DNA of 64,000 nucleotides, taken from contig DAIDHS010000011.1 in NCBI GenBank assembly GCA_027451985.1, positions 1-64,000 of the forward strand. The letters are read 5' to 3'. The notes below the pieces were generated by a model. It did no database searches and had not been told where the DNA came from. It was given only the letters and a program-made list of their open reading frames with translations. The DNA comes from Elusimicrobiota bacterium (lineage in GTDB: Bacteria > Elusimicrobiota > Elusimicrobia > UBA1565 > UBA9628). Position 1 is the first letter of the stretch; the number at the start of each line of letters is the position of its first letter. A program made the position numbers and the translations under genes. Below, piece by piece: positions 16,361-55,324 of this stretch.

Positions 16361-19300
16361 CGAATGACCACCACTTTGAAGATATGGCGGGACCCGGAGC
16401 CCTCGACGACCGCGAGGTAGACGCCGCTGGCTACGGGGCGCCCGGCGCGGTTGACGCCGGTCCAGACCAGCACTCCCGAGGCGTTGGCGGGCTCATCGAA
16501 GACCAGTTCGCCGTGCAGCGTGAATATCCGGATACGGGAGTCGGCGGGAACGTTGCTGAAGGTGACGTAGCCGTTGCCTCGGCTGGCGTAGAAGGGATTG
16601 GGGAAAATTTTAGCGTCGTTGGCCGCACCGCCGGGGGTCTGCTGGGCCACGACGAACTCGGAGAAATGATTCACGGTGGCGTTAATGACGTTCTGCGAGG
16701 TGTCCACGGCGCTGGCCAAGGGTACGCAGGTTCCGCTGGCGTCGACGCGCATGAGCGCGGCTTGATCGATGGAGAATGGGATGGCGGAAGGCGAATAGGT
16801 GATGCTGAGGTAGTAGGGCTTGAGCGGCTCGAAGGCAGGAGTCGTTTGGATGGTGAGTCCCGTGGAATTGACAGAGCCGGGGCATGGAGAAACGGCGAAG
16901 CTCATGGTCGAAATAAGGATGGTGACGGGCGTGTTGACCACTCCTTCGGGCGCGTTCAGAGAGACGGTCATTCCGTTGGGCAAAAGTCCCTGCATGAAAT
17001 TTGCTTCGTTGGGGTAGAGGATTCCGCCCAAGGTCCCGGCCGGAGCGCCGCCGTTGAAGGGTTCCGTGGAAACGACGTTGGAAAAGGCTGTTACTTGACC
17101 GTAGGGGTTTTCGGCCTGGACGCGGAGATAATATAGCAGCGTGCTGGACAAGCCGGTCAGAGTGTAGGAATTGCCGCGGAAGTTGGAGGAAAACGGCAAG
17201 GCGGTGAAATCGGTCGCCACGAAGTTGTCGGTCGAGTAGGTGACTTGATACGTGGTGGAGGACGAATTGGTTCCAGTCAGCCAGGACAAAGAAATGGAAG
17301 TCGGGCCGACGGAAGCCACCGTCAGGTTGCTGGGGGCGTCGGCGTAGGTCGCCGTGCTGCCCAAGCTGACATAGGATGAAAGTACGCCGTTCTGGTTGAG
17401 GGCCGCCGCCTGAGCGCTGAAAATCGCGCCCGCAGAAGGAATCCCAGTGAATGTCGCGCTGACCGCCTGGGTCGACACGGTCGCGATGACAGATCCGTTG
17501 ACCAGGACCTGCATTTGATACTGGGTGCCTGCGGGATTCCCGTTGGAGGTCCAGGCTCCGATAAAGCTGCTGTCGTTGAGGACGATGAGAGGAGGCGACA
17601 CGCCTCCGGGAACTGCGGCGAGCGTGTAACCGGTCGCGACCGCGGACAGAGGACCCTCCCCTTGCGAGGTGACGGCGCTGACTTCCACGGAACGGATTGA
17701 ATTAGTGGAGAGCCCTATATCGGCGAAGGAGGTGGCCGTGGGGGTCGCGATGACGACGGCAGGCGCCGTGGCGTTGTAAACCTTATAGTAGTTGACGGAT
17801 CCGCCCGGGCTCGTCCATGTCCACTGGATGCAGGTGGTGCCGTCGCTGGCGCAGGGCGTTCCGGCGACGCTGATGACGGAGATGGTGGTTCGGGTCGAGG
17901 CGACGTTGCTGAATCCGGAAAAGGCTCCGCCAAGCGACGCGGCTCTAACGCGGAAGTAGTAGGTGGTGTTGGGCATGAGAGGCGAGATGGTCGCCGTGCT
18001 GGCGCTCAAATTGTCGCCGATGGAAACGGGCGTGGAGAATGAAGCGGTGAAATCATCGGTCGAGTCGGATATCTCGTAAAGAGTTCCGAAGGAGTTTTGA
18101 TTGGAATTCCAGGTGAGAGTCACCGATGTCGGGGTTGCGGATGAAACTGCCAGGCCCAAAGGTTGCGCGGGCGGGGTATAAACGAGGGTCGAGGTCGATG
18201 CGGGGCCTTCTCCGGAGAGCGTATAGGGTGCGACGGTGATTTGCGCCGTGGACGATGGGGCAAGACTTGATTGAGTGAAGCTAAACGGTGAAGCGCCCGC
18301 CGCCGACACGGTCGAAAGGAAAAGGCCGCTGGTGGCGGAGTAAACGTCGAAGCCGTCCGCTGAAGGCCCGGAGCCTGCCGACCACGACCAAGTCCAAACG
18401 ATGCTGGAGGTGTAGACCGTGTCCGCCATGCCGGTCGGCGCGGCCGTGGGTTTGGGCGGGCCGGCCTGAAGAACGACGGCATTCGCGTACTGGGCGTTGG
18501 AAACAGTTCTGAGTCCGTACCACCCGTAAGGAAGCGAGTGGGCGGCGGCGGGAGACGTTACGGTGAGCGAGGAATTCATCGTCGACCAGGAAGTGTTGAC
18601 GCCGCCCCCATCGGCGTAGATGTCCGTGGTCAGATCGATGGCGAAGCCGCTGTCACCCTGCGAGGAGCTTCCGCCGGAAGAACCTAGGGCGTCAAGCACC
18701 ATCCTGGGCGCGTAAAAGGATGAGTTGAGGGGCCCGCCCCCCCCGCCGCTGGCTTCGGTGTTCCCCTCGAAGTTCTGTCCGGTAACCGTAATACCGGTCG
18801 CGCGATCAAATAGCGTCGGAGTTGCCGCGGTGATGGAAGACTGCCGCAGGCTTGAGGTCGTGCCGCTTTCAGCGTCGGGCGTCTGCGAGAAGTACATGAC
18901 CTCCGTACTAGCCAGGTCGCTTGATCCGTTAAAGCCGCCCATCACATGGACGTTGCCGTCCGGCGTCAGGATGGCAGCCTGGTAGGCTCTGGCCGCGGTG
19001 AGCGTGGTCAGATCGGTCCAGCTTTGTGTTTCCTCGCTGTAGATTTCTACGGAGTTTAAGGCCGTGTTAGAGGCCGTGATTCCTCCCGCGACCAGGACTT
19101 GACCGTTGGGCAAAAGAGTGGCTGTGTGATTGAAACGCGCCACGTTCAGAGAACTTGTCGCGGAGAAGGTTCCCGCGCCTGGATTATAAAGGTAGGCGGC
19201 CGAGGTTTCCCCGCCTCCCGTGTCTCCTCCGGCGATGAGCACTTTTCCGTCCGGCAGCAGCGTCGCGCTGTGATGGTAAAGCGGTTGCGGCAAAGAACCA

Positions 19301-21984: not shown

Positions 21985-22023
21985 AGACACAAGTTGCCGC
22001 GTTGCCGGAGGCAATGTGGCAAT

Positions 22024-30112: not shown

Positions 30113-31651
30113 ATGAATAGAGCCTGGAGATTATCCCGCATCTCGGCGCGCGGCGCCTGCCTGGCTGCGGCTGCGTGCTTGGCCGCCGGCCGGCTGTGGG
30201 CGGGCGCGTCCCTGCCCTTTACTGAGGAGTCGGGACTGCGCCTGAGCTCGTCCGCTGTTCAGTCCGCCGTGTCCGTGACGGCCTCCGACTGCGGCGGATC
30301 GGCCACGGCGTGCGAACGCATCTACTACATCGCGCAGAGCACTTCGACCGGCATGACCCAAGTGCTTTCGGCTTTGACCAGCGACGAATTGACGCTCAAT
30401 CCCGAATCCGGCGTGCGCCTCTCGACCGCCACGACACCCGCCCTGGACATTCAAGTCAGCTCGATTACGGGCTGTTCGGTGCTTGCTCTTTCCGGCGGCG
30501 GCTACCGCATGCTTTACTCCGTTTTAGGATCAACCGGCAGCTACCGCGTTTACTCGGCGACGTCCGCAGACGGCGTGGCCTGGGCCAACGACCCCGGTAC
30601 GCCGGTTCTCAATCCGGGCGGCGTGGTGGCGTCCCCCTCCGTGGTGAAGCTCACGGCCGGGAATCTATCGGGCGACTGGACGGCCTATTATGTGGGCAAT
30701 CAAGGTTCGGGGAATGAGATCTACGAAGCCTACTCCTCCAACCAGGGCGTGTCCTGGAACACGCCGTTTCTAGCCCTCTCCGCCGCCGCGACCCAAGTCT
30801 CGGCGGCTGTACTTACCAGCGGCTCGGTGAGGTTGGTCTACACCGCGCCGCTTTCGGGCAGCACCACGGCGACGCAGGTGTTGAGCGCCCTCTCTTCGGA
30901 TTCCAGCGGCGCGAGCTTCAGCGCCGAATCGGGCGCGCTGGTCTCCACTGCCGCGGCCGACGGTTCGCTCGGCTATCCTTTTCTTCTACGCGATCTCTCG
31001 CAAACTTACCGCTGGCGCCTTTACTACGATTTTATCCCTCTGGGCGCGGCGACGGGCACGGTTTTAAGCGCTTTGACTCAGAGTCCGGTGCCGCAATCGA
31101 TGTCCCCTTCCTCGATCTATTATACACAGGCCGGCAGCACCTTCACTATCAGCGGCGAAGTATTTTCCCCCGCGCTCAATAGCGTGGAACTGACCATGTC
31201 CGGTCAAAGCTCCATCATCGGAAGCGGTGTAAGCGTCACCAATGATAATACCATCAGCGTGTTTTTTAACACCCAGAATGCGGCGACGGGAGACTGGAGT
31301 TTGCAGGTGACTAACTCCGACGGAACAAGCGGGGTCTTGTCGGGGGCGCTGTCCATCACCGTGCCGCCGGGTTCGGTGAGCTTGACGGACAACCTCATCC
31401 GACCGCTGGAGGGAGGCAAGACCAGCGTGAAAGTCACCATCTACGCGGCCGGACCGGTGAGCCTGCGCATTTACGACTTGCGCGGCCGCCTAGTCGACGA
31501 TTTGCTCGAAGCATCCGAACCTATAGGAACCTTTACCGAGTATTGGGACGGAGTGACCTCGGACGGGCGCACGGTTGCCAGCGGCGTTTATGTGCTGCGC
31601 TCGCTGGGGCCCAACTTGAAATCCATAGATAAAATCGTGGTGATCAAATAG
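30113..31651 (+). CDS. secreted protein with FlgD-like C-terminal domain, cargo 2
   Basis: A 512-residue exported protein. The signal peptide is RGACLAAAACLAAGRLWAGA. Residues of about 45-340 repeat strand-rich units with Asp-box-like pieces (YSATSADGVAWANDPGTPVL; YSSNQGVSWNTPFLALS), suggesting a five- or six-bladed propeller like glycosidase or sialidase folds. An IPT/TIG-like domain follows (GSTFTISGEVFSPALNSVEL). The FlgD-like tail is VSLRIYDLRGRLVDD, RTVASGVYVLRSLGP and IDKIVVIK. A TAGACT box ends 9 bases before the ATG, so the mRNA may be nearly leaderless. The barrel gene follows after 2 bases. Enzymatic activity cannot be claimed. Confidence 0.78.
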   Translation: MNRAWRLSRISARGACLAAAACLAAGRLWAGASLPFTEESGLRLSSSAVQSAVSVTASDCGGSATACERIYYIAQSTSTGMTQVLSALTSDELTLNPESGVRLSTATTPALDIQVSSITGCSVLALSGGGYRMLYSVLGSTGSYRVYSATSADGVAWANDPGTPVLNPGGVVASPSVVKLTAGNLSGDWTAYYVGNQGSGNEIYEAYSSNQGVSWNTPFLALSAAATQVSAAVLTSGSVRLVYTAPLSGSTTATQVLSALSSDSSGASFSAESGALVSTAAADGSLGYPFLLRDLSQTYRWRLYYDFIPLGAATGTVLSALTQSPVPQSMSPSSIYYTQAGSTFTISGEVFSPALNSVELTMSGQSSIIGSGVSVTNDNTISVFFNTQNAATGDWSLQVTNSDGTSGVLSGALSITVPPGSVSLTDNLIRPLEGGKTSVKVTIYAAGPVSLRIYDLRGRLVDDLLEASEPIGTFTEYWDGVTSDGRTVASGVYVLRSLGPNLKSIDKIVVIK

Positions 31652-31653
31652 GG

Positions 31654-32598
31654 ATGGAGCGCTCACGCAGACATCCAGTTTGGACGGCCGGCCTTGCGGC
31701 GCTGGGCGCGCTCTGCCTTGCTCGAAGAGCCAGGGCCCAAGCCGGACTCACTGCGGCGCAGATATTGACGCGACCCTATTCCGCGCGCGCCATCGGCATG
31801 GGCGGGGCCTTCTCCGCGATTCAAGACGCGGGCCTGGATTCCTTGGGCTATAATCCCGCGGGGCCGGCCTCTTTGCGCGCGGCGGACGTCGAGACGGCCT
31901 ACTCGGCCGGCGTTTTTGGTGACAATTTCGGGTTCTTCGGCGCGGCCGTGCCGGCCGGGCCCGTGGTGCTCTCGGGCGGCTATCTTTACGACAACGCGGG
32001 CACCATCGATTTGAATCTTTCCAACGGCACGCAAGGGAATGTGACCGCCGAAGAGGATATGGTTGGCCTCTTCGGCGCGAGCGTCCCGTTGGATTGGGGA
32101 CTCTCTGTTGGCGCTGTGGGTAAATATATGCACCTGACCTTGGCTCAGCAGGCGACAGCGACCAGCTTCGCGGCCGATGCCGGCGCTTTATGGAGAACAC
32201 CTCTGAAGGGCTTAAGCGTCGGAGCCGCAGTGCAGAACATGGGGCCCGATGTCACATACGAAAAGGTCGGCGACCCTCTGCCGCTGAGCGAACGCGTCGG
32301 CGCCGCCTATCATCTGCCGTGGGCGGAATACTCTCACGGCATGTTTGATTTCATCCAAAGCTACGAGTTCGCGGCCGATCTGGTGAAAGAGCGGGATCAA
32401 ACCAGTTACGGCGCCTTGGGCGCGGAGATCGAGTCCGCATTGCTGGATTTACGCGTGGGCTACGACGTCGATGCGTCCCCACAAACCTTGAGTCTCGGCT
32501 TTGGCATCAAGGAACGCGGTTTCCGGTTTGACTACGCCATGAACCTCATGGGAGACTTGGGCGAGGTCCACCACGTTTCCGTGGGCTACCGGTTCTAA
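31654..32598 (+). CDS. PorV/UPF0164-like outer-membrane barrel 2
   Basis: A 314-residue protein with a signal peptide ending near RARAQ. The family N-terminal motif is YSARAIGMGGAFSAIQDAGL, then LGYNPAGPASLR. The C-terminal barrel end is FRFDYAMNLMGDLGEVHHVS-VGYRF, ending in Phe as expected for a BAM-recognised strand. It lies 2 bases after the FlgD-tailed protein gene, repeating the cargo-then-barrel arrangement seen at 15377-21984 and 45882-55324. Substrate transport is unproven. A lipid or hydrocarbon channel (FadL-like fold) is the main alternative. Confidence 0.8.
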   Translation: MERSRRHPVWTAGLAALGALCLARRARAQAGLTAAQILTRPYSARAIGMGGAFSAIQDAGLDSLGYNPAGPASLRAADVETAYSAGVFGDNFGFFGAAVPAGPVVLSGGYLYDNAGTIDLNLSNGTQGNVTAEEDMVGLFGASVPLDWGLSVGAVGKYMHLTLAQQATATSFAADAGALWRTPLKGLSVGAAVQNMGPDVTYEKVGDPLPLSERVGAAYHLPWAEYSHGMFDFIQSYEFAADLVKERDQTSYGALGAEIESALLDLRVGYDVDASPQTLSLGFGIKERGFRFDYAMNLMGDLGEVHHVSVGYRF

Positions 32599-41901: not shown

Positions 41902-42925
41902 TCAGCCTTCAAGAGCCCGGGCCAGTGCGGCGGCCGCGCGCCGCACGCCCGCCTCGCTGACTTGTTGGTGCATAACGAAGCGAAAGACTCCCGCTTCGGG
42001 CGGAAAAACGCGCACGCCGTCTTTGTTCAGCGTGGCGATGAGTTTTTGAGGCGCTCCGCGCAGGGGCAGCGCCGCGAAGACCATATTGATTTCAGGCTCG
42101 CGCAACACTGAGACGCCGGGGATTTCCCGCAGAAGCCCGGCCAGCAACTTAGCCTTGGCGTGATCGTCTTTGAGCTTCGGACGGATTTCCTTTAAGCCCA
42201 CCAAGCCCGCCGCAGCCAGGACGCCCGCCTGACGCAGGCCGCCGCCCATGCGCTTACGGTTGGCGCGGGCGCGCTCGATGAAGTTCCGGCTCCCCAGGAG
42301 CAGGGAACCCACTGGGGCGCAAAGGCCCTTCGAAAGGCAAAAAGCGATGGAATCGGCTTGGCGCGCCATTGTTCGGGGCGCGACGCCCAGCGCTTCGCAG
42401 GCGTTGAAGAAGCGCGCGCCGTCCATGTGCACGGGAATGCCGTGCGCGCCGGCGATGCGCTTGATTTCGGCGAGAACATTAAGGGGAATGACCGTGCCCG
42501 AACTCGTGGCCTGCTCCACGCACACGAGGCCGGTGCGCGGGTAATGGATGTCGCCCGGTTCGCGCAGGCGCTCCAGGACGTCCTGCGGCAAAAGATGCGG
42601 ACTTCCCGCGCTGGTTGGCCGCAGCTGGACGCGCGAGAGAAGCGCCGCCGCGCCGGCCTCGTGCTGGATCACGTGGCTGTTTTCGGCCAGGATGACTTCG
42701 TTGCCCGAGCGGGCATGCGTTAAAATGGCGCATTGGTTGGCGAACGTTCCCGAAGGCACGAACAGGGCCGCTTCCTTTCCCAAGAGCGGCCGCGGCTCGC
42801 TCAAGTTCGTTGACCGTGGGATCTTCCCGCATCACGTCGTCTCCCACCGCGGCTTGGGCCATGGCGCGGCGCATGGCCGGCGTGGGGACGGTCACCGTGT
42901 CCGATCTGAGGTCAATGAAAGCCAT
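41902..42925 (-). pseudogene. low-specificity threonine aldolase, frameshifted
   Basis: This is a PLP-dependent aldolase split over two frames. The ATG at 42925 gives [20 protein letters not shown] and [17 protein letters not shown]. The reading then shifts to the other frame near 42780-42800, continuing [20 protein letters not shown]. The rest is intact: VHMDGARFFNACEALGVAPR, AFCLSKGLCAPVGSLLLG with the PLP lysine, and KRMGGGLRQAGVLAAAGL. Removing one base in GCGGCCGCTCTTGGG would restore a single frame of about 340 residues. This is either a real inactivating insertion or an assembly/sequencing error. Confidence 0.8.
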
Positions 42926-42979
42926 AAGGGCGAGAGTTATTATCCAAAATTTATGAAACAAATGTGACCAAAGTCGCTC

Positions 42980-43007
42980 TTGACTCTGCACGTTCCTCTG
43001 ATACACT
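42980..43007 (+). promoter_or_regulatory. sigma70-like promoter of the FecR-barrel-giant operon
   Basis: TTGACT (42980-42985), a 16-base spacer and TACACT (43002-43007) precede the FecR-domain gene, predicting a leader of about 12 nt before ATG 43026. This is the only promoter-like sequence found before the four-gene operon. Confidence 0.55.
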
Positions 43008-43025
43008 TCAGGGACGCCGCAACGC

Positions 43026-44591
43026 ATGAAAACGGATTGCATTCCGGTCCGCTGTTGGCGCAGGCCCGCGACGAGGACGTTCATCGCCGCGGGATTTCTT
43101 GCTTTTTTCTGCTCCTACGCGCGCGCTTCCGCGACCATCTCCGATTATTTCGGCAGCGTGAAAGTGCTCAAAGCGGGAACGCAGAATTGGGTCAGGGTCG
43201 ACCAGGCCCCGGCCGTTTTGGGCGTGGGGGACCAGGTCAGCACGGGATTTTTGTCGCGCGCGACCATCCTCTTCAAGGACGGCTCGAAGGTGGAGTTGAG
43301 CGGTAGTTCGTCCTTCACCCTAGACGAGACCAAGCCCGGGATCTCGCTCATGTCCCTGCTTTTGGGGGTCCTGCACGCCGAGGTGACGCACAATCCCGCG
43401 CGCAGCTTCGAGGTGCGGACCCCTACCACCGTCTGCGCGGTGCGCGGCACGAATTTTAAGATCCGGGTGATGGCCGGGGGCATGACCGTCGTTGACCTCT
43501 ACCGCGGGCTTTTGGCCGTGACCGACCACAAGGGCCAGCAGATTCTCCTGCATCCCAACCAAAGCACGCGCGTGGGATTAAAAGGTCTGCCGCGGCTGGG
43601 CGCCTTGCCGGGGCGGGCCGCCGCGCGCTTGGCTGCGGCGCGCTTCCATGCGAGCATGAAGCGCGAGATGAATTTCGAGATTTCCCGCGGGCAAATCGAG
43701 GCCATGGCCGAGCGGGATCTGAGGCTCGCCGATTACCAGCAGGGCAAGACCTTGATCGACGTCTCGGGCCACGTGGTGCGCGTCGAGCAGTACATCATGC
43801 AGCCCTCTCCCGACCAAATCAAGATGGTGGTTTTGGACAAGCGCCAGAACAGCCTCAACTATTTCTATTACTTGGGGACGTTTAACACGACGCTTCCCCC
43901 CGACATCAGCGTGGCCTTGCGCGAACTGCCGGGTACGCCGGACGCCCCTCCGCAGTACTACCTGACCGGCTACCACTCGGTCTGGTCCAACGGCACCGAT
44001 TCGCTGCAAGAGATCACCAGCGGCGGCCATTTGGTCAACCTTAATAACAACTCGAGCGGCGACACCAGCGAGGCCGTCACCACGTATTTCGATCCGCTGA
44101 CCAACTCCTATAAAACGCTTACCTCAGGTGAAGCGTTCTATTCAACGCTCTTTGACAATGAAGGCCTCTATGTGGACGGAAATTTGAAATCCGGTTGGAG
44201 CGGGAGCGGCATCGAGACGTATCACTCGGGCTACGGCTCCTATAGCCCGACGCTGGCGAGCAACACGGACCCCATCACCGGCGCGGCGCTTTCCACGTCT
44301 TTGCCCGGAGTCACGAGCAGTTCGACTTTCCCCGATCCGGGGCAAGTGCACCAGACGATTTATAATTCCTACACCGATGGAACGTTCCTTAAATTCGACA
44401 ACTACATCATCAACAACCAGGGTCAGGTCGCCTCAAACTCCGCTTTCGGATCCACCTCTGGAACAGAGTTCACGCAGAACATCTTGAACTACAACTTCGA
44501 GCAGGTCATCACGGCTTCGGAGTTCCAGGGGCGCTCAATTGATTTGGTGGTTTCGCCCAAGATTTTCGTGCAAGCTGGTTTGATCCAGTGA
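43026..44591 (+). CDS. secreted FecR-domain protein
   Basis: A 521-residue protein. A Cys/Arg-rich start and a hydrophobic stretch ([18 protein letters not shown]) act as a signal peptide. The FecR domain is at about residues 38-175: [60 protein letters not shown]. Stand-alone FecR domains of this kind, without an anti-sigma helix, occur in secreted envelope proteins. The remaining 340 residues are Asn/Ser/Tyr-rich and beta-prone with no recognised family. It overlaps the barrel gene by 4 nt (GTGA). Confidence 0.78.
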
Positions 44592-45892
44592 GGCGGGCCG
44601 CGCGGCGTTTGGTTTGCGCGGGCATGGCGCTGTGCTGTTGGTCGGCTTGGGGAGGAGCCCAAATGCTGATGAGTCCGGACATCTTGTCGCTGCCGCTGGC
44701 GGAGCCCGTCAAGCGCCTGCCGCGCGTCATTGTGAGCCCTCTCTACGACTTCCAGGTTTTGGGCGGGCAGAACTTTTACACCGGGGAGAACAGTTCCTTA
44801 TCCATGGACGCCAACGGCTTCGTCGCTCCCGCAATTAAGTTCAACGATGAGTGGTCGCTTCTCCCCTCCTTCGTGACCGCTTACAACGGCACGCGGCAAG
44901 TCGTCGACATCGTCGGCGGCGGAACCGCCTTCCAGTCCCAGTGGGACAACGAGGCCGCGGTGAAGGCCATCTATTCCCCGGACGGCAGCAAATGGCGTCT
45001 TAAGCCTTATTCGGACTTCAAGTACGAATTTTTGCAGCAGAGCACTCAGGAACAGCTGGGACAAGGCCTCTACGACTACTACCAGTGGGACGCGGGCATG
45101 TCCGCGGAGTACGTCTACCACGATCCGTTTTCCATCCGCTTCGGCGCGGATTACTACGCCGTGCACTTCCCCAACTACACGTCGCTGGAGTCCGAAGCGG
45201 CGACGCAATTCCAAGGCCAAAGCCTGGCCCGCGAGCTGGTGGGTAACTACATCCTGGACAGTCAGAACGCGCTTCTGACTGTTTCCGCCGACGCGCCCGT
45301 CAAGGGCAAGTTCATCGTTGAGGGCCAGGCCGGCCTGCTCTACGCCAATTATCCGCAGCAGCACTTGGTGAACGAGTCGGGGAGCCTGGACAGTCCCGTG
45401 AGGACGGACGTCACCAGCATCCTGGGCGCGAGCGTCAAGTATCCCCATCAAATCGAGTCCGGCGTGCGGGAGGTGATTTCTTTCGGCCTGAATTATCTCT
45501 ATGACAGCTCCAACCAAAACAGCTTCGACGCGACGCAGTCCCAGTACATTCCCTTTTTCTACAACTACGGCCAGCTGACCGTGACGCCGGGATTCGAGCT
45601 TTTGGTCGGACCGGATAAAAATCCAGTTGACTGGTCCGTTTCGGCGAGTTGGTGGTACGACCGCTATCCCCACCGTCCGATTCAGAGCGCGGACGGGACT
45701 TATCTGGGCCAGGCGCTTTACACCAACAACTGGATGATCCAGAGCAGCCTCAATTATCCCATGGCGCCGCATTTCAGCCTCGTTTTCAGCGCGCAGTACG
45801 GCCGCGGGACCAGCAACGACCGCTTCCAACAGTTTTATCAATACGCCTTTACGACCGGGACTTACATGTTCGGCGTGAGCTATGACTATTAA
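44588..45892 (+). CDS. predicted outer-membrane beta-barrel protein
   Basis: A 434-residue protein starting at a GTG that overlaps the upstream stop. The signal peptide is RLVCAGMALCCWSAWGGAQ. The mature sequence alternates aromatic strands and turns (VIVSPLYDFQVLGGQNFYTG; KWRLKPYSDFKYEFLQQSTQ; HFSLVFSAQYGRGTSNDRFQ). It ends YAFTTGTYMFGVSYDY with a C-terminal aromatic, as expected of a BAM substrate. Strand content suggests 14-18 strands. I do not recognise a named family. It is translationally coupled to the FecR gene and to the giant gene, so it may form their export or anchoring partner. Confidence 0.72.
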   Translation: MRRAARRLVCAGMALCCWSAWGGAQMLMSPDILSLPLAEPVKRLPRVIVSPLYDFQVLGGQNFYTGENSSLSMDANGFVAPAIKFNDEWSLLPSFVTAYNGTRQVVDIVGGGTAFQSQWDNEAAVKAIYSPDGSKWRLKPYSDFKYEFLQQSTQEQLGQGLYDYYQWDAGMSAEYVYHDPFSIRFGADYYAVHFPNYTSLESEAATQFQGQSLARELVGNYILDSQNALLTVSADAPVKGKFIVEGQAGLLYANYPQQHLVNESGSLDSPVRTDVTSILGASVKYPHQIESGVREVISFGLNYLYDSSNQNSFDATQSQYIPFFYNYGQLTVTPGFELLVGPDKNPVDWSVSASWWYDRYPHRPIQSADGTYLGQALYTNNWMIQSSLNYPMAPHFSLVFSAQYGRGTSNDRFQQFYQYAFTTGTYMFGVSYDY

Positions 45893-48800
45893 GGAAAGAG
45901 CCATTCAAATTGGCATTGTGGCGGCCCTGGCGTTCGTTTTTGCGCCTGCCGCTTTCGCGCTTCCTGCTTGCCCGTCGGCAGCCCTGCCTAGCTGGTGTGC
46001 CAGCGGCGAGTTCGTGGCCACTACATGCGCAGTCAGCGGCTCCACGATCTCAATCCAGGCCGCCATTAACTCTTTACCGACGATTTTGACCGGCCCGGCG
46101 TGCGTCATTATTGAAGATACCGCGACCTACAACGAATCCGTCTCCGTCTCCGGCTTCACGAACAACGGCTCGAGCATCACCATTATGGCAGACCCGGCTG
46201 ATCCAACCCCCCCCATCATCGCGCCTCCGTCTGTTGCTGCTTTCGAAATTGCGCAGGCCAGTGTCATAATCCAGGGACTGAAGATTATCCCCCCTGTTAG
46301 CATACAAGATGCAATTCTTATCTCTTCTCCTGATGTTGTTGTCGATAGCGTGTCCATTGCTGATACTGCGGGCTCCATCGCGGCTGCGGGAATTTCCTTG
46401 ACCGGTTACGACACGGTGCAAAACTTCACCGCTTCCCTGCAATCCGCTTCGGGCATTATGCTAAACGGTTCGGGCAATGTGGTTTCTGCCAGCAGTGTGA
46501 CCAATAGTTCGGCCAATAATGGCGCGCTGATTTTCGAGGCCGGCGCTTCGGGCAACCAGGTAAGCAATAGCTATTTCGCAAATTCAGGCGGCGCGACCGT
46601 CTTGATCGCCGGACCCGGAGCTAACAATAATTCCTTGAGCCAGTCGACCCTCTCTGCGAATAACAGCTCTTCCGTCGCCCTCCAGCTTTCGAGCGCGGCG
46701 CTGAATACTTTTAGCGGCGATCGCATTATTAACCCGTTGGGAGGAGCGGTCAGCTTCATTTCCGGTTCCTCGAGCAACACCATCAGCCAGAGCGTCATTC
46801 TCAGTACCAGCGCCAGCTATGCGGCGCTGTCGATAGACGCCTCCTGCCTCTCCGACACAATCCAGACAACGCAGATCTCTAATTTTTCCGGGGCCGGGGC
46901 AATCATAAATGGATCTTCGCATTCAATAACACAAAGCACCTTCACGGCCTCCTCGGGGAATTGGGCTTTGCAAATCCAAGGCAACGGCAACTCCATCGCC
47001 CAAAGCTACGTTCCCAGCCTTAGCCCCGGGATTATGATCAACGGATCTTCCAATACTGTAAGCGCGAGCGTCATTAACACGGGCGGAATGGCTCTCGAAT
47101 TGGTGTCCGCCGTTGATAGCGTCATCAGCCAAAGCACCGTGGCCAGCTCGGGTGCGGCGGGGCTCTATCTGAGCTACGCCTCCTCTACGACCGTGTCGCA
47201 ATCCTATGTCTCGGGCACCGGGGCCGCTGAAATTTTCACTTCGACTTCGACCAACATCAACGGCACGGCTCTTATCGGGACAAATTCTTCGCAGATCGCG
47301 TTCTACGTAACCAACCAAAGTTCGGGGGTGGCGTTGGCGAATGATGCGGTCTCCGGAGGCTCAGTGGGCATTAATTTTAGCTTGGGAGGTTCCGGAGTCT
47401 TGAGCCTTTCCTCGGTGTCGATTAGTGGGAGTTCCACGGGCCTTGAGATAGATTCTCAGACCCCGACCGCCATTCTCTCCGTGTCCTCCGTCACTTTCGC
47501 GTCCTTGATGCCGGGTGCGACGGCCATCGGTTTTTCAGGCGGCGTGTTCAACAGCACTTTCTCCGGCGTTAATTTCGCCGATAGCAGCGTCGCGACCAAC
47601 ATCAATGCGAGCGCCTTGGCCTCGCTGTCTTCCATCGTGATGAGCGGCAGCGTGGGCCCAAGGACCGGGCCTGGGTACGCGGATGATCCCAACCATGTGG
47701 TGGTTTGGCCCAGCCAGCCGATTTCCGCCGTCGCATACCCTGCTAACGGCGCGGCCATTAATAGTTTATCTGCCATTTCTGGAACGGCCGCGAGTCCGAC
47801 CTCGACCATTACCTCGGTTTCGGTTGCTTTGAGTTCAGGTCCAGGGTTCAACACGTGGTGGTACGGGAGCGCGTGGATACCGGGGACGTTGTCTTGGAAT
47901 TCGGCCGCTTTTACCGGCGCATCTTCCGGGACATGGGCTTGGTCCACGAGCCTCCCGACCTTTATAAGCGGCGTATCCTATCACGTCCTGGTGCAGGCAA
48001 CGGACGCGGCGGCAAGGACGCAATCGCCTGCGGCTAATTCCAGTTTCGTTTTCGACAATACTCCGCCGATCTCTTCGATCAGCGTTCCCGCCCAAGGGAG
48101 TACCGTGTCGGCGCTGGGAACCATTTCGGGAACGGCAGGCGACAGCGTTGGTGTTGCTGTCGCTTCGGTGTCGCTTAATATTCAAGATTTAAGCGCCGTG
48201 CCTTCCCTGTGCTATAACCCCGGAGCTAACAATTTCACTGCGGCGTGCCCAAATTTTTTCTCGGTCTCATCCGCTTCCGGTTCATGGTTCTATAGCGGAA
48301 CCATCCCCTGGATTTCTGGGCATAAGTACCTCATCGTGAGCAGCGCCATGGATGCCGCAAGCAACGCTCAGCAATCGTTTCCGGTCGGCACGAGTTCCAA
48401 TACGTTCACATTCAATGGTTTGGTGGTCGGGACGGTGGGCGATGGGCAGGGAACGGCATCGGTTTCTCCCGCTTCCTTTCCTGGTTGCCAGGTGCTGACG
48501 GCAACGATTTCCTACGTCGCCGGATCCTCCGGGCTTCAGTCCGGAGGCATGGTCGCCGTGAACATCCCTCCCGGCTGGAGCGGTCTGCAGGGTGAAGACG
48601 AACTCAACAACCCGCCGCTGAACCCCGGCTTCGTGCACGTCGTTTCAACTATCGGATACGGCATGCAGTTTAATCCCAGCCAAATCGGAAATGCGGTTTT
48701 AGGGACGAACTGGATGGTCTACACCGCCTCCGCGCCGCTTCCGGCCGGCGCCACGGTCCAGTTCGTGTATAGGGGTTATCCCGCGGGCGGTCCCTTGGCC

Positions 48801-51800
48801 CAGAATGCGCAGGTTTTCGCGGTGCAGGTCCAGGGTGGCCCGGGCGGGAATTTGCAGCCGATTCAGTCCCCCTCCGCAAGTTTGACGCCGGGGCCGGCTG
48901 CTAACTTGGCGTTTTATCCCAACGCTTCTTTGGCGTTGGGACCGCTGCAGAATTCGCCGACCATGTATCTGGAAGTGACCGACGCCTGCGGCATTTCCAC
49001 GGCCGCCGCTTCGGCCATCACGGCGTCGCTGTCAGGCAGCGTCAACGGCAGCCAGGATTTGGGCGCGAGCTTCTACAGCGGCGGAGCGCCTCTGGCGGGC
49101 TCTCAAATTACCATCGCGCCGGGATCGGCGCAGAGCGCCGGATTCTATTTCAACACTTCTAGCTCGTCCGCTTACGAAGATCTGCTCGCTTCGGCGACCG
49201 TATCAGGAGCGGGGATTTCTTACGCTAATCGCTATGTTCAGCTGCTTTCCTCCGGCGCTTCGATTTCGGGAGTCTCCATCGATACGGGGACCCCGGGAAG
49301 TCTTCTGAATGTTCCCCTCACCCAAAATGGATCTGTTGGCGGTGTCGCTTTCATCAATTTCAGCTTGTCCAATCCGGCCCTGAACTGGGAAGTCGTCGTC
49401 TCCAGCAATTCGACATCGTTCTCACCAAAAGTGGCCGACTTTTTCGGGGTGGGCAGCCCTGGGCGCACTTTGACTTGGAACGGGCTTAACAACATGGTCT
49501 ATCCCAATAGTTTTGTTTCGACGGGCACCTACTACGTGGAAATCATCGCCGGGGGCGGCGCTGCGGTCAATACGAGCCTATCCGTATCCGTAGGCGCGGG
49601 CGCTTCGATTTATGGAACCGTTGCAAACGGCGCGGGAGCCTCCATTTCGGTCATGGGCCCCAATGTCGGCCCCGGCAATTTCGCCCAGGCCGACACCAAC
49701 GGCAATTTCATCGTCCCAGGCTTGCAGAGCGGCGGGGTTTACAACGTCCAAATCAGCTCCATGCTGATTCTTTCGGGGGTGCCGGTCAACGTCAGCACCG
49801 GAACATCCAGCGTCACGGCCAGCGCGATGGGCACCAACATTGGGACGCTCGTCTTGCCCGTGCCCTCTTACATCGCGGTTTCGGCGACGCTGCCGCAGGC
49901 GGCTCAGAGCGAGATTTGGGGCAACGTCTCGGCCCATGACGCGAGTTATTCCAACACGGCGAATGCGGCGCTTCATTTCGCTCAGGGCAGCGCGCAGTCC
50001 GATAACGGCGCCCAGAATTTCGGCGTGACCGCCAGCACGTGGACGCAGCTTTTCCTGCCGCCCGGAACCTACGAGGTCGACGTCAACCTGCCTTCGATTA
50101 ATCTCTCGACCAGCGTGTTTAACGTCTCGTTGGCTAGCGGTTCGTCAGTCGATCTGCCGTTGTCCTTGAGCAAACAAGCGGACGTCTACGGCTACGCGTT
50201 TTTGCCGGCGGCAGCCTCCACCGGAACTTCCGTTTCCGTGCAGGCTTTTCCCGCGGGATCGTCGAGCGGGCAGGGCGGTATTTTCGGAGGAACCTTCGTG
50301 CCGCCGGGATCGTCGAGCGGGATTTACTCCCTCTTCGGCCTGTCGCCTGGAAGTTGGACCATTACGGCGCAAAGCATGGGCTACGTCGGAGTGTCAAGCG
50401 AAGTGTTCATCTCCAGCGACGCGGATGTGGGTACTGCTTCAGGCGGCGGTTTTAATTTGACCCTGAACACGGGCGGGATTATTTTCGGCACGATGACCGT
50501 TACGGGCGACAGTTCGCAGGAATCCGCCTCATCGACCTGCGGAATGTCGGGAAGCGGCTTCTGCGTCCGCGTCAATGCTTATGGCCCGGCCGCCATTTCG
50601 GGACAGGGGATTTCGGTTCATCTTGCCACCAGCACGACCCAAGCGCAAAGCACGTTTACGATTACGGGACTGCCGGACGGAGCGTACTTCCTGAAGTCCT
50701 CGCTTCCTGGTTTTGTCGGAGGAAGCCAAAACGCGGTGGTTTCGGGAGGTTCCGGGAGCGCCAATCTGGCAGTGACTGAGGCTAACGACGGTCTGACTAT
50801 TTCCGTCGATTTGCCAAGCGGAAGTTTTAATGAAGTTTCCTTAGGCTACGCCGATAATCAAGGAGACTCTAAATCTTTTGATGACATTACTCAGATTCCG
50901 GGCTTCGCGTCTTCCGGCTCCACGGCGACCGCTGTTTTCTCCGGCCTAAACCCCGGCCTCTATTCCATCGATGCATTCGATAAGGCGGACGGGATTTTCC
51001 GCCAAGTCAGCGCCGCAGTGTCCGCGGGCACGACCACGGCAGTCAACCTCGATATGTATGGGGCAACCTATTCCGTCCAAGGGTCCCTCTCTTTCTCCGG
51101 AACCCTGAGCGTGCCGGAGCCCGGCGGGTTCTCCGTGATGGTGAGCTCCGCGGCGGGCTGGATTTCCCAGGTTTCAACCGTGGCTTACTGCGTGATGGGA
51201 TCCTCCAACGGCGTCACGCTCTCGGCCGCCCAGATGCAGCTCCTTCCGGCGGGGCCCAACAACGGCGGCTTTTACGGCGGAACTCTTCAAACTCCGCCCA
51301 ACTGTTCCAACATGATGACGGGTGGATCCAATAACAACCAGGGAAACTCCAATCCCTTCCACGTGTATCTGGCGACCATCAGCGCCGATGGAAGCTTCGA
51401 TTTTTCCGGCATTCCTCCAGGACTTTACCAGTTGCGCAACAATTCCAGAATGGACTCCTCGGGCGATTCCGTTCCACAGTTCTCCCAGGTCGTGCTGGTG
51501 ACCGGACCCATCTCCGGGATTTCTTTCCCCATCGGCAGCGGTTACTCGATTTCCGGCAGCGTTCTGGCGCCGGCGCAGACGTCCTTGAGCCGCCAGGTCT
51601 TCCTGAACCTGATGGATCAAAGCAACAACTCGGTCGGCCAGCCTCTTGTTGTCTCCTTTAATAATTCCGCTTCGGCTTCGTTTTTGTTTCCCCAAGTGCC
51701 ATCTGGGAATTATCTTATCCGGCTTATGGACGGAGGCTATCCGCAGACCTACGCGGCCGCGCCTTTGGCCGTCAATGTCAATGGGCAAAGCCTCTCAGGT

Positions 51801-54362
51801 CAAGTGATCCAGCTTGTTCCCAGCGGGACCATCAAGTTCAAGCTTGCCCTTGAACAGAAGACGCCGGCTGGAAGCGATCAGTTCACCCAGATTACTCAGA
51901 ACAACGCGAATCTGCTGCCGTCTTCCTTCCAAATTCAGGCCCAAGCCGACCCGTGGTTTAATGGCGGCTATGGATCCGCTCAATTCCAAGGTGGGCAGCT
52001 TGTCTTGGACTCCAACGGCGAGGGCATGATTGCGGGTCTTCTGCCCGGAACCTACGACGTGCAGATGGCCATGCAAAACGGGCCTTCGGTGGGCAATGCC
52101 GGCTTGGTTTCTTCGAGCATTTCCGGGGTGAAGGTGACCGGAGGAGCGGTGACGGACGTGGGGACCATCAATGCCCTTTTGGGCGACCAGATTTCCGGAC
52201 GGGTCACGGACGAGAGCGGAAACCCCCTGCCCAACATCAACTTGGTCGCCCGGATTTCCCAAAGGAGCGCCGGAATCCAATTCCAGGAGCTTTCCGCCGT
52301 CACCGACGGCAACGGCTACTACGCCTTGAACGGTCTTGATCCCAACGCGCGCTATTACGACATTTATGCCGCTTACCGAGGGGATGAGGAGCATCAAGGG
52401 GAATTCCTGCCGCCCTACGAACAGAAGATCGATGAATCGGTGGACGTCAGCAGCGTGACGAACTTGAATTTTTCCCTGGCGCAGGCTCCCTACTCCGTCG
52501 GCGGGCAGGTTCTTGCCCCATCGGGTGGGCCGTCTCTCATCATTCCGTTCAACAACGGAGTAAATAACGGCGCCCAAGTCGCCCAGCCCGGAGCCGCAGT
52601 GTTCCTGCAGAAGGTCGGAGTCCCCCCGACCAGAACGCCTCTGGGCGACATCCAGTTCAATACGGACTTAAACGGCGATTTCTCCATTCCGAGCCTTGCG
52701 ACCGGAACTTACCGGATGACGATCGTTTCTCAGGGCTACTCGTCTTTCCAAGAGAACGTTCTAATTTCCTCCGCGTCTGTCAACCTCGGCTCCATCACCA
52801 TGTCGCAAGGCCCGACGCTTTCCGGAACCTTGACGACCACGAGCGGCGGCAGCCCCAGCACGAGTCAAATCCAAAACTTGATCGCGGCCACGCCGAATGT
52901 GAGCAGCGTCTTGGTAGGCTCCTTGCAGACCAACTCGCAGGCGCAGACGGTCTCGGGCTACTCCGTGAGCGGGTTCAAGCTCGGAACCGCGTATGAAATC
53001 CTGATGCTCGATTCCAATGGCAACATGGTGACTCCCCTGGAAGGTCGAGACATTGTCTTCAATTCAACCGCGCCGATGACGTTGAACATGATTTACCGCC
53101 CTTCCCCGCCGCTGGTCATGGCCAAGGCTTTCCGCCAAGGCAATGGATTCAACATTGAGTTCGACCTGAGCCAGCCTCTGCGCGACGAGACTTCCGCGGA
53201 CGATAATGCGAGCCTCATCCTCAGCACTGTCTCGGCCCAAGGAGCGCTGAGCGACGAAGCCATTTCCCAGGACCGCACGGAAGTTACGGCATTCTATACG
53301 CCCGGCATATCTGAATCGAGCTTTACTTTGCGCTTCGACGGCTACAGCAATGTGACCAACCCGGACTCTCTGGATCAGACCAACCCGCAATTCATGGCGC
53401 AGAGCACCGTCACGTTCTACACCGGCATCGGCGGCCTCAGTCAGTCCAACATCCAAAACTACATCGGCGGCGACGTCATCGCGCAGGGAGAATCTGGGCG
53501 AGTCACCCTCCCGGCCGACGCCTTCAACGTCAACGTGGCCTCCTCGGTGCAGGTGACCCTGCAGCTGGCCGAGGAGGCGCTCAATACCGGCAATCCCTCC
53601 GTGTCCGCGCTTTCTTCTCCGGGCGCGCAAAGAATAGAGTCCTTGAGCCGCTCCCCAGCATCCTATCCCTCGCAGCTCTTGGATGCGGTCGCCGCGGTGC
53701 CGCCGAGCGTCAACCCGTTGTCCTCCTTCTACAACATCTTCCTGCCCCTGGGTGTAAGCACCCTGCTTTCGAGCCCGGCCCAGCTCACTATCTCTTATTC
53801 CACCAGCGCGGCCGACCCGTCTTCCTTGAACGTCTATTGGTACAACGCTTTGGCTAACGCCTACGTGCTTCAGCAGGACGTCACCGGGGCCTCGCCCGTC
53901 ATCGACACGGTCAACCACACGATCACCATCAACGTCAGCCATTTCTCGACCTACGTCTTGTTCAACAGCAACCAGGCGCTCATCAGCAGCGGATCGGGGG
54001 CGACGGATTTTTCGGCGCACAACTTTCCCAATCCCTTCGACCTGACGGTCAAGACCGTGCAGCCGCAGCATACCGGCGGATCCTGCGGGTCGTCGTGCAG
54101 CATCCGCGGCACCATGATCGCGGTCTCCATTCCCGCGGGCATGTCCGGCGACGCTTCCATAGACATTTACAACGTCGCGGGGACCAAGGTGCGCCACATC
54201 GACTTGGGAAGCGTTTCCGGCGGCAACTACTACTACCAGAACTGGGACGGCACCAACGATGACGGGCGGGACGTAGCCAGCGGTGTCTACTTCGGCGAGC
54301 TTAAAGTGGGCGGCCAAAAAACCTTCTTCAAGATGGCCGTGATCAAGGGGTCCGGCTTATGA
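45882..54362 (+). CDS. 2826-residue secreted giant: beta-helix, CarbReg domains, FlgD-like tail
   Basis: A very large exported protein. The signal peptide is IGIVAALAFVFAPAAFA. Residues of about 60-620 form a right-handed beta-helix of short repeats (SVINTGGMALELVSAVDSVI; GAAGLYLSYASSTTVSQSYV). Two Ig-like domains follow (ISAVAYPANGAAINSLSAIS; ISSISVPAQGSTVSALGTIS), then a long array of carboxypeptidase-regulatory-like units (LLGDQISGRVTDESGNPLPN; YSVGGQVLAPSGGPSLIIPF). An HFSTYVLF module precedes the FlgD-like tail (SIDIYNVAGTKVRHIDLGSV; GRDVASGVYFGELKVGGQKT; FFKMAVIKG). It is probably a surface adhesin. The next gene is a PorV-like barrel overlapping by 4 nt. Composition is strongly Ser/Gly/Ala/Thr. 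Confidence 0.85.
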   Translation: MTIKERAIQIGIVAALAFVFAPAAFALPACPSAALPSWCASGEFVATTCAVSGSTISIQAAINSLPTILTGPACVIIEDTATYNESVSVSGFTNNGSSITIMADPADPTPPIIAPPSVAAFEIAQASVIIQGLKIIPPVSIQDAILISSPDVVVDSVSIADTAGSIAAAGISLTGYDTVQNFTASLQSASGIMLNGSGNVVSASSVTNSSANNGALIFEAGASGNQVSNSYFANSGGATVLIAGPGANNNSLSQSTLSANNSSSVALQLSSAALNTFSGDRIINPLGGAVSFISGSSSNTISQSVILSTSASYAALSIDASCLSDTIQTTQISNFSGAGAIINGSSHSITQSTFTASSGNWALQIQGNGNSIAQSYVPSLSPGIMINGSSNTVSASVINTGGMALELVSAVDSVISQSTVASSGAAGLYLSYASSTTVSQSYVSGTGAAEIFTSTSTNINGTALIGTNSSQIAFYVTNQSSGVALANDAVSGGSVGINFSLGGSGVLSLSSVSISGSSTGLEIDSQTPTAILSVSSVTFASLMPGATAIGFSGGVFNSTFSGVNFADSSVATNINASALASLSSIVMSGSVGPRTGPGYADDPNHVVVWPSQPISAVAYPANGAAINSLSAISGTAASPTSTITSVSVALSSGPGFNTWWYGSAWIPGTLSWNSAAFTGASSGTWAWSTSLPTFISGVSYHVLVQATDAAARTQSPAANSSFVFDNTPPISSISVPAQGSTVSALGTISGTAGDSVGVAVASVSLNIQDLSAVPSLCYNPGANNFTAACPNFFSVSSASGSWFYSGTIPWISGHKYLIVSSAMDAASNAQQSFPVGTSSNTFTFNGLVVGTVGDGQGTASVSPASFPGCQVLTATISYVAGSSGLQSGGMVAVNIPPGWSGLQGEDELNNPPLNPGFVHVVSTIGYGMQFNPSQIGNAVLGTNWMVYTASAPLPAGATVQFVYRGYPAGGPLAQNAQVFAVQVQGGPGGNLQPIQSPSASLTPGPAANLAFYPNASLALGPLQNSPTMYLEVTDACGISTAAASAITASLSGSVNGSQDLGASFYSGGAPLAGSQITIAPGSAQSAGFYFNTSSSSAYEDLLASATVSGAGISYANRYVQLLSSGASISGVSIDTGTPGSLLNVPLTQNGSVGGVAFINFSLSNPALNWEVVVSSNSTSFSPKVADFFGVGSPGRTLTWNGLNNMVYPNSFVSTGTYYVEIIAGGGAAVNTSLSVSVGAGASIYGTVANGAGASISVMGPNVGPGNFAQADTNGNFIVPGLQSGGVYNVQISSMLILSGVPVNVSTGTSSVTASAMGTNIGTLVLPVPSYIAVSATLPQAAQSEIWGNVSAHDASYSNTANAALHFAQGSAQSDNGAQNFGVTASTWTQLFLPPGTYEVDVNLPSINLSTSVFNVSLASGSSVDLPLSLSKQADVYGYAFLPAAASTGTSVSVQAFPAGSSSGQGGIFGGTFVPPGSSSGIYSLFGLSPGSWTITAQSMGYVGVSSEVFISSDADVGTASGGGFNLTLNTGGIIFGTMTVTGDSSQESASSTCGMSGSGFCVRVNAYGPAAISGQGISVHLATSTTQAQSTFTITGLPDGAYFLKSSLPGFVGGSQNAVVSGGSGSANLAVTEANDGLTISVDLPSGSFNEVSLGYADNQGDSKSFDDITQIPGFASSGSTATAVFSGLNPGLYSIDAFDKADGIFRQVSAAVSAGTTTAVNLDMYGATYSVQGSLSFSGTLSVPEPGGFSVMVSSAAGWISQVSTVAYCVMGSSNGVTLSAAQMQLLPAGPNNGGFYGGTLQTPPNCSNMMTGGSNNNQGNSNPFHVYLATISADGSFDFSGIPPGLYQLRNNSRMDSSGDSVPQFSQVVLVTGPISGISFPIGSGYSISGSVLAPAQTSLSRQVFLNLMDQSNNSVGQPLVVSFNNSASASFLFPQVPSGNYLIRLMDGGYPQTYAAAPLAVNVNGQSLSGQVIQLVPSGTIKFKLALEQKTPAGSDQFTQITQNNANLLPSSFQIQAQADPWFNGGYGSAQFQGGQLVLDSNGEGMIAGLLPGTYDVQMAMQNGPSVGNAGLVSSSISGVKVTGGAVTDVGTINALLGDQISGRVTDESGNPLPNINLVARISQRSAGIQFQELSAVTDGNGYYALNGLDPNARYYDIYAAYRGDEEHQGEFLPPYEQKIDESVDVSSVTNLNFSLAQAPYSVGGQVLAPSGGPSLIIPFNNGVNNGAQVAQPGAAVFLQKVGVPPTRTPLGDIQFNTDLNGDFSIPSLATGTYRMTIVSQGYSSFQENVLISSASVNLGSITMSQGPTLSGTLTTTSGGSPSTSQIQNLIAATPNVSSVLVGSLQTNSQAQTVSGYSVSGFKLGTAYEILMLDSNGNMVTPLEGRDIVFNSTAPMTLNMIYRPSPPLVMAKAFRQGNGFNIEFDLSQPLRDETSADDNASLILSTVSAQGALSDEAISQDRTEVTAFYTPGISESSFTLRFDGYSNVTNPDSLDQTNPQFMAQSTVTFYTGIGGLSQSNIQNYIGGDVIAQGESGRVTLPADAFNVNVASSVQVTLQLAEEALNTGNPSVSALSSPGAQRIESLSRSPASYPSQLLDAVAAVPPSVNPLSSFYNIFLPLGVSTLLSSPAQLTISYSTSAADPSSLNVYWYNALANAYVLQQDVTGASPVIDTVNHTITINVSHFSTYVLFNSNQALISSGSGATDFSAHNFPNPFDLTVKTVQPQHTGGSCGSSCSIRGTMIAVSIPAGMSGDASIDIYNVAGTKVRHIDLGSVSGGNYYYQNWDGTNDDGRDVASGVYFGELKVGGQKTFFKMAVIKGSGL

Positions 54363-55324
54363 AGCGGCGCCTGAGCCCGGTTTGGCCGGCGGCGTTTGCC
54401 CTGGCCTGCTCATGCGCCTGCGCGTGGGGGTTCGGCACGTCCCAGAAAGGAACCAGCGGCGCGCAGTTCCTTGAGATTGAGCCGGGCGCGCGCCCTTCGG
54501 GCATGGCGGGCGCTTTTGCGGGCTTGGCCGATGACGTCAACTCGGTCTATTATAATCCCGCGGGCCTTGGAGCCATCAAGAGCGTGCAGGCGGAAGGAAT
54601 GGAAGATGAGTACTTCCAGGGCGCCAACTACGATTTTGGGGCGCTGGCCGTGCCGCTCTTGTCCTGGGACAAGAAATCCTCGGCGCCGAAGAACGAATAC
54701 GGAACGCTGGGCGCGGCGGTCTACAACCTTTCGGTAGGCAGCATCCAGGGCTACAGCGCCAATGAGACTCCAACGGGAAATTTCGCCTCGCAGGACTTCG
54801 CCTACGCGCTCAGCTACGGATACGAAATTCCCCATGCGGGGATTTCCCTGGGCGCGACGGAGAAATACATCACCTCCAATCTCGACGGCTACGGGGCGTC
54901 CAGCTATGCGGCGGACATGGGCGCGCTCTACCGCTGGGGCGATCAATTCTCCGCTGGCGGCGGCGTGAGAAACCTGGGGCCCAAGTACGGTTTCGCCGGA
55001 CAGGGCGACCCCTTGCCCATGGCGTGGTATGCGGGCGCTGCGTGGAGAATTATACCCCAGTGGCTGGTGACCGCGGAGCTCGATCTGCCCAGGGACAACG
55101 GCGCGTCTTACGCCCTGGGGACCGAGTACGCGATGATGTTCACGGAGAACCTCGGGGCCTCTTTGCGCGCGGGTTACGCCAGCCGGAACACGGATGCTGG
55201 CGGGTTTTCAGGCGCGACCTTCGGCGCGGGCTTGAAGTACTCGAACTTCGGCTTCGACTTCGCCTTCGTACCTTTCGGCGATCTGGGCGACACCTACCTT
55301 TACTCCCTCACCGTCGGATTCTAA
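54359..55324 (+). CDS. PorV/UPF0164-like outer-membrane barrel 3
   Basis: A 321-residue protein whose ATG overlaps the giant's TGA. The signal peptide is WPAAFALACSCACAWGFG. The family start is GAQFLEIEPGARPSGMAGAF, then VYYNPAGLGAI, the classic PorV pattern. The end is FGFDFAFVPFGDLGDTYLYS-LTVGF with terminal Phe. The third cargo-barrel pair of the window ends here. In this copy the cargo gene is the 2826-residue giant, and it is co-translated with the barrel. Confidence 0.86.
   Translation: MKRRLSPVWPAAFALACSCACAWGFGTSQKGTSGAQFLEIEPGARPSGMAGAFAGLADDVNSVYYNPAGLGAIKSVQAEGMEDEYFQGANYDFGALAVPLLSWDKKSSAPKNEYGTLGAAVYNLSVGSIQGYSANETPTGNFASQDFAYALSYGYEIPHAGISLGATEKYITSNLDGYGASSYAADMGALYRWGDQFSAGGGVRNLGPKYGFAGQGDPLPMAWYAGAAWRIIPQWLVTAELDLPRDNGASYALGTEYAMMFTENLGASLRAGYASRNTDAGGFSGATFGAGLKYSNFGFDFAFVPFGDLGDTYLYSLTVGF

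Follow-up and report, generated by a model that had tools for sequence, protein, structure and literature searches.

The question raised by this locus is what a unit of four overlapping genes, coding for a FecR protein, an outer-membrane barrel, a giant protein and a second, PorV-like barrel (here genes A to D, Table 1), makes for its host and which of its products carry or hold the giant. The genes lie within a 64,000-nucleotide stretch (the window) of an Elusimicrobiota bacterium genome of 2.4 Mb in 107 contigs. The open reading frame positions and the three overlapping junctions (GTGA, 11 nt and ATGA) are exactly those of the original prediction, and all four products possess signal-peptide-like N-termini, as judged by eye from the translations. 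The neighbours of the operon are a threonine aldolase-like gene and a CLC channel, with a Pfam search showing the cassette proper to consist of A to D alone. A consensus scan for internal promoters and terminators was uninformative, giving 11 promoter-like matches against 4.0 expected, scattered on both strands, and a count of terminators not above chance.

Table 1. Coordinates of the A-B-C-D cassette in the window, and loci of related cassettes
Feature	Position or loci	Strand	Details
Gene A, secreted FecR protein	43026..44591	+	521 aa; signal peptide, FecR domain, long helix, new C-terminal beta domain
FecR domain of A	43230..43508	+	PF04773, E 4e-17, 62.8 bits against a cut-off of 24
A-B junction, GTGA stop/start overlap	44588..44591	+	4 nt; many relatives likewise show an NTGA overlap of 4 nt
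Gene B, 16-strand outer-membrane barrel	44588..45892	+	434 aa, GTG start, C-terminal aromatic (SYDY)
B-C junction overlap	45882-45892	+	11 nt
Gene C, giant cargo	45882..54362	+	2826 aa; signal peptide, beta-helix, Ig-like part, CarboxypepD_reg repeats, FlgD-type CTD
Right-handed beta-helix of C	46341..46796	+	residues 154-305, PF13229
FlgD/CHU_C-type sorting-domain-like CTD of C	54015..54359	+	NFPNPFD...VASGVY...FKMAVIKGSGL
C-D junction, ATGA stop/start overlap	54359..54362	+	4 nt; recurs in relatives
Gene D, PorV/PorQ-family barrel	54359..55324	+	321 aa; putative shuttle dedicated to C
Complete cassettes, same family or order	L039, L040, L044, L047, L049, L051, L055, L059, L061, L065		
Complete cassettes, other families of class and phylum	L100, L101, L103, L110, L111, L115, L116, L118		
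Cassettes with a cNMP-binding gene	L059 5478-5930, L061 13208-13666, L063, L065, L047, L049, L051, L053, L054, L057, L076, L106		

The upstream neighbour, the threonine aldolase-like gene, is itself split over two frames on the reverse strand (41902-43084; N-terminus in the open reading frame 42479-43084, body in 41902-42804), while the corresponding place in a sister species holds a single 340-aa open reading frame (L008 25-1047). The split gene is either a pseudogene or an assembly error.

The search for homologues of A and B covered 37 genomes, and that for B was extended to 248 Elusimicrobiota genomes, 91 of which were found to possess it. Neighbourhoods were scored with HMMs built from A, B, the C-terminal domain (CTD) of C, and D. 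Gene A lies directly upstream of B at 47 of the 58 sampled B loci with sufficient upstream sequence, and the complete A-B-C-D order is present at 19 loci, namely the window and 18 others; many of the loci counted as incomplete are ones in which the sequence stops inside the giant, at a contig end or at the end of the retrieved region. Chance adjacency of the cassette genes is negligible. Scattering of the four genes in relatives, the outcome set against the original prediction, was not what was found, the order being intact across families at all 19 loci. The 4-nt A/B and C/D overlaps were also found again in the cassettes of relatives. In several of these (e.g. G010, G029, and G032) the cassettes stand in tandem, D of one being followed directly by A-B of the next. 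A genome pattern scan with a 9-row alignment of the barrel returned 13 loci with relatives of B, all labelled as Elusimicrobia MAGs, and a tree of B resolves two well-supported paralogue clades within the order, the window B belonging to one of them.

Phylum-wide synteny, the retention of the coupling overlaps and the correlation of distance matrices together are strong evidence that A-B-C-D is a single unit, as had been proposed. Across the 19 complete cassettes the pairwise distances of A and B (r 0.915) and of C and D (0.816) are better correlated than those of the other pairs (0.64-0.79), with shared descent lifting all of these values; since A-B and C-D are the best correlated, they appear as two partner pairs within one inherited unit, and the values fit two interacting pairs inside it. 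The layout had been described as an unfamiliar one, but it is no one-off, as it recurs across the phylum and is ancient. No paper on the A-B-C-D layout was found in the literature searched, and in those portions of the literature that were examined, Elusimicrobiota and type IX secretion (T9SS) occur together only as brief mentions or among the cited references.

The giant C possesses right-handed beta-helix, CarboxypepD_reg and FlgD_ig domains. At its tail FlgD_ig scores above its cut-off while CHU_C and Por_Secre_tail fall under theirs, and among solved structures the CTD matches FlgD best (E 3e-4), with a weak match to PorU (0.24). The pattern of the CTD alignment, NFPNPF...G(T)...W(D)G...VASG(V)Y...KMA(V)IK, is presumably that of FlgD/T9SS type A tails. 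In addition, the CTD end of the PorU family model matches the C protein of a relative. The giants were seen to have two endings, ...KMA(V/L)IK or ...KMAVIKGSGL (KGSRL in L053), on comparison of the window C terminus (54348-54359) with the upstream giants of L044, L047, L049, L053, L059, L061, L063, and L065 and with L074. The window giant ends in GSGL, although IK is the usual giant ending among the cassettes with which the window barrel clusters. Related genomes also hold open frames of 13,000-14,000 codons that bear a CTD, e.g. G012:C43, G027:C8, and G022:C26.

Gene D belongs to the PorV/PorQ family (NF033709, 141 bits against a cut-off of 90) but falls below the PorV equivalog cut-off, and the single PDB match of its family profile is to 6h3i_F, the PorV of the SprA translocon complex (E 4e-26). 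One SprA-like protein is encoded in the genome (contig C8, 22122-28298, reverse strand). Its match to TIGR04189 (E 1.8e-41, 141.5 bits) is under the curated equivalog cut-off of 200, and a profile of 12 SprA-like sequences matches solved SprA only in the PDB (E 5e-26). SprA-like proteins are present in 35 of 37 relatives and in 211 of the 248 phylum genomes, with PorV-family proteins in 215; the genomes without either are mostly small and of one genus. An SprA-like protein is also found in 90 of the 91 B-carrying genomes, a count that ignores phylogeny. With regard to the remaining T9SS components, searches of 37 genomes gave no match for GldL/GldM, the search having had no positive control, and the catalytic part of PorU was absent from the same 37, NF033707 matching at its CTD end only (about 950-1095) and never above cut-off.

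At least five other CTD proteins in the genome have a PorV-family gene directly downstream, two of them within the window, so that a cargo with its own shuttle is a local rule. The two in the window are a kelch/fn3 protein of 1885 aa whose tail is T9SS type A-like (TIGR04183 above cut-off) and which shares a 4-nt overlap with its PorV-family gene (15377-22014, reverse strand), and a 512-aa FlgD-tailed protein followed directly by such a gene (30113-32598, forward strand).

From these homologies the best reading of C and D is as a cargo and its dedicated shuttle in a putative divergent type IX-like export route, and by analogy an SprA-type export of C is likely. By membership the route would be T9SS-like rather than a T9SS, homologues of the translocon and the shuttle being present while the catalytic part of the PorU sortase was not found. 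It resembles the T9SS of Bacteroidota in the putative Sec signal and C-terminal Ig-like CTD of C, in the PorV-family D and in the genomic SprA-like translocon. It differs in that the SprA-like protein is very divergent, PorU catalytic part and GldL/GldM were not found (the latter search, as mentioned, without positive control), and several PorV-family genes each sit beside their own cargo instead of one general PorV. T9SS genes have been stated to be absent outside the FCB phyla (PMC11285876), and Elusimicrobiota lies outside the phyla for which T9SS is reported there, which makes its SprA-like/PorV-like pair noteworthy. Our verdict is that the cassette is a real and ancient variant of the cargo-plus-shuttle arrangement, beyond those phyla. 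The unit is not self-contained as originally supposed, as the CTD of C and the presence of D imply an SprA-like translocon encoded elsewhere in the genome. Of the two barrels, one of which was suggested to export or anchor the giant, the one best placed to deliver it is the PorV-like D and not B.

The nearest parallel is found in Flavobacterium johnsoniae, where operons encode a type B cargo, a cognate SprF-like barrel shuttle and a PorE-like periplasmic partner, forming complexes thought to be static and anchored at the surface (PMC12618676, PMC9143113). There too the barrel shuttle comes after the cargo it serves, and a gene for a periplasmic partner belongs to the operon. In the Elusimicrobiota cassette, the CTD is of the FlgD/type A-like kind and the shuttle of the PorV family, while a FecR protein without a peptidoglycan-binding domain stands in the place of PorE and there is an extra, unrelated barrel. 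The OmpA_C-like, peptidoglycan-binding domain that marks a PorE-like anchor in the periplasmic partner was not found in A, where FecR was the only domain recovered.

This extra barrel, B, represents a new family, with no match in Pfam or NCBIfam and no sequence relatives in the PDB. Its AlphaFold2 model is a barrel of 16 long strands (pLDDT 85, pTM 0.79). Assignment to a known barrel family by fold was unsuccessful, as only generic porin, AlgE, PgaA, BcsC, and FadL matches were obtained (TM 0.3-0.5). A distant relationship to PorV/FadL was rejected on profile-profile comparison (probability 1.4%), and membership of the PorP/SprF family was likewise rejected, B having no Pfam or NCBIfam match and being unrelated by profile to the PorV-family D.

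In gene A, FecR is the sole Pfam match, and in the predicted structure FecR is joined by a helix of 38 residues and, at the C-terminus, a beta domain without a PDB match. A domain search found no LysM, OmpA_C or other peptidoglycan-binding domain, which leaves its proposed role as a wall- or glycan-linked base unsupported; A is more likely a periplasmic protein docking on a barrel. The N-terminal 63 columns of the FecR domain resemble 5ix9, the domain by which an antifreeze protein is anchored to the cell surface (Foldseek probability 1.00, TM 0.69 on the target, 33% identity), and 5ix9 is also the top PDB profile match for FecR, at E-values of just 0.06 and 0.03. This resemblance is taken as a lead only.

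Our preferred reading, to which we would give a probability of about 55%, is that the four genes form a cassette devoted to the production, export and seating of a single giant surface protein, with A and B docked as its outer-membrane base. The idea of a surface-protein assembly unit stays the best one. In this scheme C would be made with a Sec signal peptide and would pass through the outer membrane by its FlgD-type CTD via the genome-encoded SprA-like translocon. By homology with T9SS, D would then receive C as its own PorV-like shuttle, deliver it and hold it at the surface. Soluble periplasmic A would dock on barrel B from the periplasmic side, and together they may form the outer-membrane base for C, most likely as a static anchor and possibly as a gate or sensor. 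A and B look like a co-evolving partner module, second to C-D, and probably help to assemble, hold or control the giant; whether as anchor, gate or sensor, their role for C is one that we infer.

Sensing is a serious rival to anchoring given the A-B pair found beside a CHASE2 kinase and the cNMP-binding genes of 12 cassettes, although on balance we consider it improbable. Here A-B would be a surface sensor, with the barrel detecting either a ligand or what state the giant is in, FecR relaying this, and a cytoplasmic cyclic-nucleotide/CHASE2-type circuit tuning expression of the cassette. FecR domains pass barrel signals in known cell-surface signalling systems, and in a fold search the FecR part of the A model matches the anti-sigma regulators 4m0n and PupR 6ovk. 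A second, divergent A-B pair in the genome (contig C2, about 15252-18122; L004 12253-15123) adjoins a Crp-like regulator, DUF4384 and a CHASE2-Ser/Thr kinase, and operons of LysM-FecR with a CHASE2 kinase are on record in Burkholderia (PMC5192318). A stand-alone cNMP-binding protein of about 150 aa, with no obvious signal peptide, is encoded between B and C in the cassettes of 12 relatives, but the window cassette is without one. The likeness to the FecR/PupR and LysM-FecR systems extends to a periplasmic FecR domain with an outer-membrane barrel and to the divergent paralogue beside a CHASE2 kinase. Against this, the cassette lacks a sigma factor, an anti-sigma part, a TonB receptor and a LysM domain, and A carries a unique C-terminal beta domain. 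A Pfam search of A-D and two flanking genes gave no ECF sigma factor or TonB-dependent receptor, and Pfam and NCBIfam no TonB-receptor plug or signalling domain in B.

It is rather less probable again that A-B works on its own as a porin or export pair whose substrate is something else (e.g. a glycan), only co-transcribed with an independent C-D. A-B pairs without a visible giant do occur (L004, L075), so that the pair is not confined to giants, as do C-D pairs without A-B, and the fold matches of B to porin, AlgE, PgaA and BcsC barrels are of this kind; but the four-gene order has long been kept across families of the phylum and copied whole into tandem cassettes, and no glycan synthesis gene was seen within the cassette.

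Giant adhesins of the RTX type, such as LapA and MpIBP, have a retention module, and their plug is part of the adhesin itself. That the N-terminal half of FecR plugs barrel B like such an anchoring region in an export pore, with A-B holding or releasing the giant, is very unlikely: both systems have a giant surface protein and A partly resembles the fold of 5ix9, but at the E-values given above and over only part of the domain, which may reflect a common fold, while type I secretion/RTX features were not found here and the FecR protein is a separate gene.

Beyond the cassette as an assembly and seating unit, a broader proposal can be put forward tentatively, at odds clearly below even. Elusimicrobiota may possess a phylum-wide, reduced type IX-like export system, with SprA-like and PorV-like proteins but neither the motor nor the sortase of Bacteroidota. 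The FecR-barrel pair may then be a previously unknown outer-membrane device that both seats and controls giant cargo, with cyclic nucleotides governing it in many relatives. If the route is real, the combination of SprA-like protein (211 of 248 genomes), PorV-like shuttles and cargo with a CTD would carry this principle of export into a further phylum, and such export may work without the known motor or sortase. The conserved FecR-barrel pair is itself an outer-membrane module, so far uncharacterised, with ties to giant surface proteins.
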